Shown here piece after piece: positions 11,419 through 14,672 of a DNA stretch of 64,000 bases (its first letter is position 1; each line of letters opens with the position of its first letter). This stretch comes from an uncultured Clostridia bacterium. Its GTDB lineage: Bacteria; Bacillota; Clostridia; Christensenellales; Borkfalkiaceae. The notes under the pieces are model-generated. The model ran no database searches. It saw only the letters and a program-made list of their open reading frames with translations, and was not told the origin of the DNA. The translations under genes were made by a program, and so were the position numbers. The stretch lies in the NCBI GenBank assembly GCA_947631195.1, contig CANRKK010000001.1, positions 62,001-126,000 on the forward strand. Direction: 5' to 3'.

Positions 11419-11447
11419 TTGACAATTTTTCTGTCGTGTGGTATATT
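11419..11447 (+). promoter_or_regulatory. sigma-A promoter of putative ncRNA
   Basis: TTGACA (11419-11424), 17-nt spacer, TATATT (11442-11447). Confidence 0.8.
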
Positions 11448-11453
11448 TTAGCT

Positions 11454-11640
11454 ACCACATTTTCAATACAAATCGTAGAGCAGTTTTGCTCTGTGCATAT
11501 TGTCAGCCAAAATACACAATATGGCATTGTGTATCTCTTTTGATATTAAAAATTTCGGCTGACGAATATTGTATTGAAGGTGTGGTAACCGTAAGAGATA
11601 CCGTGCGGTGTGCTCTTTCGGGAGCACACCTTATTTTTTT
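11454..11640 (+). ncRNA. putative structured RNA (~187 nt): standalone sRNA or cis leader of the downstream lipoprotein gene
   Basis: Long-range stem TACCACATTTTCAATACAA/TTGTATTGAAGGTGTGGTA (11453-11471/11569-11587); hairpin AGAGCAGTTTTGCTCT (11477-11492); stem ATATTGTCAGCC/GGCTGACGAATAT; hairpin TACACAATATGGCATTGTGTA (11513-11533); terminator at the end. Confidence 0.75.
11607..11640 (+). terminator. intrinsic terminator of putative ncRNA
   Basis: GGTGTGCTC-TTTCGG-GAGCACACC followed by TTATTTTTTT. Confidence 0.88.
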
Positions 11641-11660
11641 ACCGCACAAAAGGAGATACC

Positions 11661-14600
11661 ATGAAGAAAAAGCTGTTAATTTTGTTGTTGACTGTGGTTG
11701 CCGCCCTGTGCTGCGCGTTGTGTTTAGCTGCGTGCGATGATAAGCCTGCTGCAAATTCGGGCAACGGCGGCACGCAGACAGAGCAAGGTGGAAACGGTGG
11801 AAACCAATCCGAACACACTCATACTTACGGTGATTATGTTGGCATTACGCCCGCAACCTGTTCGGCAACGGGTTTAAAGGGGCATTATCAGTGTGAAACA
11901 TGCGGAGAATATTTTAATATGTTTAAGCAGCCGGTTAACTATTATGATTTGGTAATCAAAATTGATCCTAATGCTCATGAGTTGGGCGAATGGGTAGATG
12001 AAGTGCCTGCAACCTGTTCGACGACAGGAACAAAAGGTTACCAACAATGTGATTACTGCCATAACAAGTTTGACATCAATGGTAAACAAATAGACGATTT
12101 GACTATTGATATTAACCCTTCAGCGCATAAATTTGGGGGATGGACACCCGACGTGCCTGCAACCTGTTCGACGACAGGAACAAAAGGTTACCAACAATGT
12201 GATTATTGCCATAACAAGTTTGACACCAATGGTAAACAAATAGACGATTTGACTATTGATGTTAACCCATCGGCGCATAAATGGAATGTTGGCGTTACAA
12301 CAAAAGAACCAACCTGCACAGAGCAAGGCACAAAATTGTTTACTTGCGTACATAATGAAAATCACACAAAAACCGAGCAAATTGAAATTGATACTACCAA
12401 GCACGATATGCGGGGAGTTCCTGAAAAATCTCCTACTTGCACTGAAGATGGTTATACGGCATATCAACAATGCTCAAGATGTGGTTATAAAGATGGATAT
12501 GTAAAACTTGTAGCCTCGGGACACCAATTTAATGAAGCCGTGTCAAAAAAGACTTGCCTTCAAAAAAAGGCTTATATAAATTATGCTTGCACAAAATGTA
12601 CACACCAAGAACAAAAGGAAATAGAAGATATTTCGGCTACATTTCGCGCCGAAGATAAACATTATGCAAATGGAGTATTGCAAGAGATTACCGTTTATGC
12701 CTTTGCCGAAGGTGGCTATGGGGATTTGGAATACAAAAAAGAGGCGTTCAAAACGTCTGAAGATAAGAAGCCTTTGCATGTTCTTGAATTCAGTAATGCT
12801 AACGGTATAATATTAACCGATAAAAATATTGGTTTAAGTGAATATATTATACAGTTTACTATCAAAGATAAATATGGTAATTGTACAGTTTATAAATTTT
12901 CAGTAGGTGACAATAAAGTTATATCCACCGAGATACCTGAGGCTCACGAGTGGAATGAGGGGGTGCAGACCCTGGCTCCTACCTGTACTACTCAAGGTAC
13001 AATGGAATACACTTGCGTGTATGACGAGGGGCACAAAAAGACTGAATTGATAGCTATAGACGAAAATGCCCATACATACGGACCACTTATTCAAGAAAAG
13101 CAACCGACTTGCACAGATACAGGTATACAGGCACATTATCACTGCGCCTGCGGTAAGTATTTTGACGAGGAATATCAAGAAACTACGTTTAGAAACTTGG
13201 AAATTGCCATAGATCCCGATGCACATAATTTCAACGGCGGAGAGAACTGCACTATTTGCAACGTCGCCTCGAATTATACAAGGGGATTAGAATATGTATA
13301 TACATCCTATTTGAAAGGTTATGTAGTAAGCGGAATAGGTACTGCTACCGATGAAACTGAAATAGTTATTCCATGCTCATATATGGGCGAACCGGTAACC
13401 TCTATAGCCACTAACGCATTTGGCACTCGCCCTAATCTTAAGGCAATTACTATTCCGGATAGTGTGACAAATATCGGTGGAAATGCGTTTAGTGGCTGTA
13501 CAAATATCAAAACGGCAACCATTCCTGCAATGGCAATTAGTTATATCCCTAAAAACAATCTGCAAGTAGTTATTATTACAAGCGGAACATCTTTAGGCAA
13601 TTATGCATTTCAAAATTGCACAAGCCTTACAAATATAACCATACCCGACAGCGTTACTTCTATCGGCGATAGTGCGTTTGATGGTTGCACAAGCCTTACA
13701 AATATAACCATACCCGACAGCGTTATTTCTATAGGCAGTAGGGCGTTCTATTCTTGCACAAGCCTTGAAAGCGTGAATTTCGGAAATGATAACAAGCTTG
13801 AATCTATCGGTAGTTATGCGTTTTATGAATGTACAAGCCTCACAAGCATAACTATACCCGATAGTATTGTTTCTATCAACGATGGCGTGTTCAGTAATTG
13901 TGCAAGCCTTAAAACCATAAATATACCTGATAGTATTGTTTTTATTGGCGGTGCGTTCTTTGGTTGCAAAGGGCTAGTTAAAGTTTACATAACGGATATT
14001 AAGTCTTGGTGCAATATTGAGTTTGACAGTTATAATTCTAACCCTTTGTATTATGCGCACAATCTTTATTTAAACGATAATCTTGTAAACGAAATTACTG
14101 TCGATATGTTGCAAGGAGTAACTGAAATTAAAGACTATGCGTTTTATGAATGTACAAGCCTCACAAGCATAACTATACCCGACGGCGTTATTTCTATAGG
14201 CAAATATGCGTTCCAAGAGTGTTCAAACCTTAGTGAAACAACTATTCCGGACAGTGTTACTTCTATCGGATATTGGGCATTTAGCCAGTGTTATAAGCTA
14301 TTTAAAACCGAAAACAATGTAAAATATGTAGATAAGTGGGTGGTAGAATGCGATGAATATAGTTCTGCAATAGCAGCATCTATAAAGTCAGGGACCAAGG
14401 GCATTGCAGATTATGCGTTTGAAGATTGTACAAAGTTGGAAAGTGTAACTATACCCGAAAGTGTTATTTATATTGGACAATTTGCATTTAAAAATTGTCC
14501 AAGTCTTAAGGGTGTGACAATTGAGGGCGACGCAAAAAATTGGCAAATGTCAAAAACGAGCGATATGGCGGATGCTACGCCAGTGGACTTATCAAATGCT

Positions 14601-14672
14601 ATCGGCAACGTCGAATATTTCACTTTTGATTATGTTGAATATTATTGGAAGCGAGATGATGCAAATGAGTAA
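11661..14672 (+). CDS. BspA-like leucine-rich-repeat surface lipoprotein with N-terminal Cys-rich repeats
   Basis: ATG 11661 after AGGAG; lipobox LCLAAC; repeats TPATCSxTGxKGxxQCxxC; LRR_5 units ITIPDSVTSIGxxAFxxCTSL. Confidence 0.88.
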   Translation: MKKKLLILLLTVVAALCCALCLAACDDKPAANSGNGGTQTEQGGNGGNQSEHTHTYGDYVGITPATCSATGLKGHYQCETCGEYFNMFKQPVNYYDLVIKIDPNAHELGEWVDEVPATCSTTGTKGYQQCDYCHNKFDINGKQIDDLTIDINPSAHKFGGWTPDVPATCSTTGTKGYQQCDYCHNKFDTNGKQIDDLTIDVNPSAHKWNVGVTTKEPTCTEQGTKLFTCVHNENHTKTEQIEIDTTKHDMRGVPEKSPTCTEDGYTAYQQCSRCGYKDGYVKLVASGHQFNEAVSKKTCLQKKAYINYACTKCTHQEQKEIEDISATFRAEDKHYANGVLQEITVYAFAEGGYGDLEYKKEAFKTSEDKKPLHVLEFSNANGIILTDKNIGLSEYIIQFTIKDKYGNCTVYKFSVGDNKVISTEIPEAHEWNEGVQTLAPTCTTQGTMEYTCVYDEGHKKTELIAIDENAHTYGPLIQEKQPTCTDTGIQAHYHCACGKYFDEEYQETTFRNLEIAIDPDAHNFNGGENCTICNVASNYTRGLEYVYTSYLKGYVVSGIGTATDETEIVIPCSYMGEPVTSIATNAFGTRPNLKAITIPDSVTNIGGNAFSGCTNIKTATIPAMAISYIPKNNLQVVIITSGTSLGNYAFQNCTSLTNITIPDSVTSIGDSAFDGCTSLTNITIPDSVISIGSRAFYSCTSLESVNFGNDNKLESIGSYAFYECTSLTSITIPDSIVSINDGVFSNCASLKTINIPDSIVFIGGAFFGCKGLVKVYITDIKSWCNIEFDSYNSNPLYYAHNLYLNDNLVNEITVDMLQGVTEIKDYAFYECTSLTSITIPDGVISIGKYAFQECSNLSETTIPDSVTSIGYWAFSQCYKLFKTENNVKYVDKWVVECDEYSSAIAASIKSGTKGIADYAFEDCTKLESVTIPESVIYIGQFAFKNCPSLKGVTIEGDAKNWQMSKTSDMADATPVDLSNAIGNVEYFTFDYVEYYWKRDDANE
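12003..12132 (+). repeat. near-identical ~130-bp direct repeat, copy 1 (period 150 bp)
   Basis: gtgcctgcaacctgttcgacgacaggaacaaaaggttaccaacaatgtgatta... Confidence 0.9.
12153..12282 (+). repeat. near-identical ~130-bp direct repeat, copy 2
   Basis: Same sequence as 12003-12132 with a few substitutions. Confidence 0.9.
13815..13861 (+). repeat. 47-bp exact LRR-coding direct repeat, copy 1
   Basis: tatgcgttttatgaatgtacaagcctcacaagcataactatacccga. Confidence 0.9.
14136..14182 (+). repeat. 47-bp exact LRR-coding direct repeat, copy 2
   Basis: Identical to 13815-13861. Confidence 0.9.

Follow-up and report, generated by a model that had tools for sequence, protein, structure and literature searches.

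A probable riboswitch-like attenuator ahead of a BspA-type lipoprotein gene in an uncultured Clostridia bacterium

The RNA element described here is no separate RNA gene. On comparative sequence evidence, it is the 5' leader of a lipoprotein gene (LRR_5/BspA-type, positions 11661-14672) and belongs to a large RNA class in Clostridia that is absent from Rfam and looks undescribed. It probably governs its gene by riboswitch-like transcription attenuation, in which a pseudoknot and an antiterminator would exchange one shared strand. Comparison of homologues establishes the helices and the fact that they exclude one another, as well as the promoter and the location ahead of genes. All positions refer to the window, the whole stretch of 64,000 nucleotides that was analysed.

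Few riboswitch-like classes that occur in about half of a family's sampled genomes, and whose whole expression platform can be read from covariation, are still without an Rfam entry. The genes behind this one code mainly for exported proteins, with BspA-type leucine-rich-repeat lipoproteins frequent among them, and the Clostridia that carry it are for the most part uncultured; the Lapin isolate names of the named records closest to the window suggest that these come largely from rabbit-gut MAGs. Once its signal is identified, it should become clear what these bacteria sense before changing their surface. With a consensus and two covariance models in hand, the question of the signal is directly testable.

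The promoter, the downstream genes and the spread of the class

The promoter TTGACA-N17-TATATT, already proposed in a preliminary description of this DNA, was found at 11419-11447. The gap between the end of its -10 box and P1, the closing stem of the RNA, is 5 nt, placing the start of P1 at about +1. Both boxes stand at the expected place in 103 of 133 homologues, compared to 1 of 132, 3 of 129 and 2 of 81 in shifted controls. The -10 box alone has at least five of six matches in 124 of the 133 elements, where it usually ends 5 nt before P1 and the spacer to the -35 box is 17 nt. Judged by the homologues against the shifted controls, the promoter position is genuine, and the transcript begins at P1, as the fixed promoter spacing, near-absent in the controls, indicates.

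The preliminary description took the element for a separate RNA gene merely ending before the lipoprotein gene, a view that the homologues contradict. Among 63 unique copies, the start codon lies less than 100 nt from the 3' strand of P1 in 76% (median distance 83 nt), and by simple heuristics 57 of the 63 downstream proteins have a signal-peptide-like N-terminus and 50 a lipobox-like motif. The genes follow the elements in the same orientation and mostly code for exported proteins. Of 45 downstream proteins, 18 have Pfam matches to BspA-type leucine-rich repeats, and others carry List_Bact, InlB-type or other surface repeats. At distant loci, the downstream proteins are often exported or membrane proteins as well (LRR_5 in 13 of 49, RCC1, copper-amine-oxidase N-domain), along with kinase-like (APH), zinc-ribbon and small unknown proteins. 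Taken together, these genes have no one common metabolic pathway. Homologous copies precede different genes in relatives, and four are found in the window's own genome, where G000:C54:192-311 (E 2.6e-4) is a possible fifth. Tandem leaders stand before one gene at L262, L263 and L300. More broadly, tandem pairs of leaders of the class, separated by about 40 to several hundred nt, occur at L262, L263, L264, L266, L300, L046 and L047.

Some other features of the coding regions were observed. The 3' strand of P1 plus the adjoining segment X is complementary to the first codons (KFVTT, AAATTTGTTACCAC) in L240, L223, L225, L226 and L227, where L240 has a matched change, and to the RBS itself in L249. 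Matched start regions differ from shuffled ones overall (z -3.6), while within groups the difference is not significant except weakly; an extra translational layer is possible. Inside the window's lipoprotein gene, near-identical tandem coding repeats (PATCSTTGTKGYQQCDYCHNKFD...) occupy 11990-12270, and long imperfect inverted repeats pair 13811-13850 with 14136-14175.

The spread of the class was followed with two covariance models. The first, R1, matches 53 of 93 genomes of the window's genus at E 0.1. The second, R2, was built with divergent members. Within the window's family it finds elements in 170 of 301 genomes (12 of 18 genera); for the order the count is 79 of 396, with 26 of the matching genomes belonging to the family, and for the class Clostridia it is 47 of 391. 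Among 220 genomes sampled across the phylum, R2 matches the window's own and none of the 219 others, and is therefore specific. Sampled distant loci, inspected individually, have the same parts. An initial pattern search (GGYGTGGTRRYC...AGAKRY...TTTTT; 22 of 93 genomes) had suggested a one-genus family, which the covariance models overturned. The sole outside match to this pattern (G210) was put down to chance, as were pattern matches in Tateyamaria, Rubripirellula, Colinaster and a gammaproteobacterium, which are without P1 and the terminator. R2 also gives weak matches where a real element is read on its opposite strand; these palindrome shadows were set aside.

The fold and the two partners of segment X

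Positions 11453-11640 fold with a minimum free energy of -70.9 kcal/mol, compared to a mean of -39.2 (sd 3.4) for shuffled sequences (z -9.2; no shuffle among 200 reaches it). Given the inverted repeats, the opposite strand is expected to fold just as well, and does (z -9.7), so the orientation of the element is taken from the promoter, the U-tract and the downstream gene. A chance origin is excluded by the homologues, which carry the same parts: promoter, P1, an internal stem with a UCUCU-containing loop, segment X, terminator and, usually, an exported-protein gene, in homologues found by sequence and by covariance model alike. The features are listed in Table 1.

Table 1. Parts of the leader and of the gene it precedes, by window position
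Feature	Position	Strand	Basis
Sigma-70-type promoter: TTGACA (11419-11424), 17-nt spacer, TATATT (11442-11447)	11419-11447	+	Sequence; spacing kept in homologues, rare in shifted controls
P1, 5' strand (UACCACAUUUUCAAUACAA)	11453-11471	+	Fold, inverted repeat, covariation of positions 10-18
P2, variable side hairpin	11474-11495	+	Predicted fold; homologue comparison
P3, 5' strand (partner 11557-11565)	11500-11508	+	Fold
P4 hairpin (11512-11520/11526-11534), conserved loop sequence GGCAU	11512-11534	+	Fold, alignments
Pseudoknot, 5' strand GUAUCUCUU; overlaps the 3' side of P4 by GUAU	11531-11539	+	Compensatory changes and statistics
P3, 3' strand (partner 11500-11508)	11557-11565	+	Fold
P1, 3' strand (UUGUAUUGAAGGUGUGGUA)	11569-11587	+	Fold, inverted repeat, covariation
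Switching segment X (ACCGUAAGAGAUACC); pairs in pseudoknot (11593-11601) or antiterminator (11589-11602)	11588-11602	+	Covariation with two different partners
Antiterminator hairpin, 11589-11591/11619-11621 and 11593-11602/11607-11617; predicted -16.0 kcal/mol	11589-11621	+	Constrained fold; duplex energies
GUGCGGU, complement of ACCGCAC (11641-11647) past the U-tract	11603-11609	+	Sequence, homologue comparison
Intrinsic terminator, stem 11607-11616/11621-11630; predicted -17.9 kcal/mol; U-tract TTATTTTTTT (11631-11640) right after the stem	11607-11640	+	Folds; stem covaries
RBS AAGGAG	11650-11655	+	Sequence
Lipoprotein-like signal sequence and BspA-type leucine-rich repeats, 1003 aa	11661-14672	+	ORF; Pfam LRR_5 E 2e-85

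Much of the preliminary picture agrees with this fold. It had described a branched structured RNA with no convincing ORF, a 19-position closing stem, which is P1 (11453-11471 with 11569-11587, 89% complementary), and a terminator with a T tract ending at 11640, and all of these stand. The internal hairpins are also present with shifted bounds. The hairpin placed at 11477-11492 folds as 11474-11482/11487-11495 (P2); the second long stem, given as 11497-11508 with about 11556-11568, is shorter, at 9 bp (P3); and the nested hairpin put at 11513-11533 is a 9-bp stem at 11512-11534 (P4). What that picture missed were the pseudoknot and the antiterminator, the two functional helices that make the switch. 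Covariation in homologues, which it had named as a check, was found for P1, the pseudoknot and the antiterminator.

Covariation among copies whose P1 sequences differ identifies P1 as an RNA helix. Its positions 10-18 are paired in about 90% of 64 elements, compared to 51% when strands are shuffled between elements, and its conserved end also changes with compensation in distant members. P2 is missing or replaced in many homologues. GGCAUUG-GUAUCUCU is conserved at P4 in the alignments, and the consensus has conserved, unpaired-looking bases in the AAUA after P1 and in the GGCAU and UCUCU of the loop, resembling what an aptamer or a protein site would show. The exact sensor fold is uncertain because the pseudoknot overlaps part of P4. 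From a plain MAFFT alignment, RNAalifold recovered not P1 but GUGUGGUA:UACCGUGC, a pairing that distant relatives do not keep.

The pairing of the loop with X is compensated in L177 (GUAUAUCUUUU:AAAAGAUAUAC), L178 (AUUAUCUCUC:GAGAGAUAAU), L227 (GUACCUC:GAGGUAC) and L241 (GUGUUUC:GAAACAC), as well as in L081 and L141. Matched pseudoknot strands pair better than shuffled ones at type level (z -4.5) and in distant members (z -7.8). The antiterminator, in which X pairs with the 5' arm and loop of the terminator (11607-11621), has compensated pairs that include CCUUUAAGAGA:UCUUUUAAGG, CCUUUUAGAGA:UCUUUAAAAGG and CCGAUAAGAG:CUCCUGUCGG. Its matched X:Y duplex energies beat shuffled ones both among 33 close types (z -6.4) and among 56 distant types (z -14.4), and at least eight X:Y pairs are present in every tail analysed. 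In an alignment of close and distant members, P1 with the antiterminator has 44 two-sided changes (8-17 in sliding controls, that is, with the alignment shifted by one to three columns), and the pseudoknot with the terminator has 22 (1-9 in the controls); none of 500 shuffles reaches either count. These shuffle tests are only partly corrected for relatedness, and the same pattern recurs in distant members with independent compensations.

X can be in either the pseudoknot or the antiterminator, never both, and the antiterminator precludes the terminator. The latter two are near-balanced in predicted energy, with antiterminator/terminator means of -16.4/-14.4 in 74 close copies and -16.6/-14.9 in 57 distant ones (window, -16.0/-17.9). 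In minimum free energy folds from the 3' strand of P1 onward, X:Y is joined with GGUGUG:CACACC beside the U-tract, and if P1 fails to form, this long predicted hairpin might itself terminate.

Two further complementarities were seen near the RBS. ACCGCAC is kept in close relatives and not in distant members, and in the read-through RNA its pairing with GUGCGGU could wrap the terminator and U-tract in a helix beside the RBS. The pseudoknot loop GUAUCUCUUU (11531-11541) is also complementary to the window's RBS region AAGGAGAUAC (11650-11659), of which the GAUAC part is kept only in some copies.

How the leader may switch its gene

In the proposed attenuation mechanism, transcription would start at P1, and the sensor domain (P1, P3/P4 and the loop GUAUCUCUU) would fold before anything else. 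Segment X, emerging just after P1, would then meet two competing partners. When the sensor domain captures X in the pseudoknot, the terminator would form and transcription would stop (OFF). When X is free, it would pair with the 5' arm and loop of the terminator, and with this antiterminator in place the polymerase would read into the gene (ON). The antiterminator should be able to form first unless the pseudoknot holds X, because its second strand lies upstream of the 3' arm of the terminator, and so it could form before that arm is made. Three points in this scheme are inferred: termination at the terminator in vivo, the assignment of the pseudoknot to the OFF state, and a shift of the balance by a signal.

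What that signal might be is a more tentative matter. Among single inputs, direct small-molecule sensing, which would make the element a true riboswitch, ranks highest, though it falls somewhat short of an even chance. A widespread new Clostridia riboswitch class that directly senses one small signal (a metabolite, ion or signalling nucleotide) is put forward with the same reserve; if true, it would switch a regulon of surface lipoproteins and adhesin-like proteins from several copies per genome, sometimes in tandem. It is also possible, if rather doubtful, that the same attenuator takes its input from a protein or another RNA, such as an antitermination factor or an autoregulatory RNA-binding protein, binding the conserved loop. 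The single-stranded-looking GGCAU and UCUCU and the lack of a common metabolic theme downstream would suit such a regulator, although no conserved candidate for one was found, and a conserved structured domain with a pseudoknot is typical of aptamers as well. An unlikely reading dispenses with a specific signal altogether and sees a constitutive partial attenuator, or a 5' structure that stabilises the mRNA, setting a low, noisy expression level. The near-equal energies of antiterminator and terminator and the paired 5' end are in keeping with it, yet the internal sensor-like domain and the pseudoknot are strongly conserved, beyond what a fixed attenuator needs.

Other readings detach the element from its gene. 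With a promoter and a terminator flanking the structure, and both ends base-paired and protected, it might be a stable trans-acting small RNA for which read-through is incidental. That is improbable given that the element is nearly always directly 5' of a same-strand gene with an RBS, that the several copies in a genome are each tied to their own gene, and that a covarying antiterminator would be useless in a free RNA. Least probable is that the element acts as DNA, either as a mobile repeat or as a recombination site (inverted repeat), and lies before surface genes by chance. The multicopy state, the inverted repeat and the near-identical 80-nt parts within a genome are in keeping with it, and mobile attenuators as such have been described (PMC2965389). 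Against it stand the compensatory changes, the fixed promoter spacing and the mutually exclusive RNA helices. The searches of phages, plasmids and viral contigs, made with a limited set of patterns, were negative too: the viral contigs gave no exact match, and the phages and plasmids no similar record.

Comparison with known regulatory RNAs

The preliminary description could not name the class, and the Rfam search likewise gave no family match. At the gathering score of Rfam 15, the window yields two tRNAs alone, and the sole match across 40 homologous loci is an unrelated tmRNA, with none at the element; relaxed searches gave sub-threshold chance matches at most. Models of 6S RNA have no match in the window at gathering or relaxed limits. 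Ribosome-mediated control by a leader peptide is unlikely in view of the leader sequences, since any candidate uORF occurs in just 11 of 136 leaders and the candidates have no common peptide except near-identical tail read-through in close relatives. T-box leaders (RF00230) share with the element a terminator/antiterminator leader in Bacillota, and the window copy has a superficially similar UGGU-ACC string. However, a T-box leader is marked by a T-box sequence with a UGGN bulge and by a Stem I with specifier, and no T-box match appears in the window even at E 10, UGG is not conserved in the homologues (UGUGUAGCA, UGUGUCGCA, UGUGACA) and the genes are not amino-acid related.

The candidate structured RNAs of comparative surveys (PMC8040213, PMC11109978, PMC8632094) come from the same discovery method and are the same kind of object. 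In the main text of these surveys and of an attenuator study (PMC2965389), no such motif appears, and the main text of the three surveys reports none before lipoprotein or LRR genes. The element may be an unnamed entry in some large survey, and some survey candidates may contain fragments of its class.

The closest likeness is to riboswitches that terminate transcription, such as the purine riboswitches. The element differs from them in having no Rfam riboswitch match and in preceding genes mostly for exported proteins rather than for one pathway. What the two share is a position in the 5' leader, a closing stem around a conserved, structured domain with a pseudoknot, a segment common to sensor and antiterminator, an intrinsic terminator before the RBS and tandem arrangements. 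Three of the features by which a riboswitch is recognised are found in the element, namely the leader position, the conserved sensor domain and a mutually exclusive antiterminator and terminator linked to that sensor (seen here by comparative rather than biochemical means).
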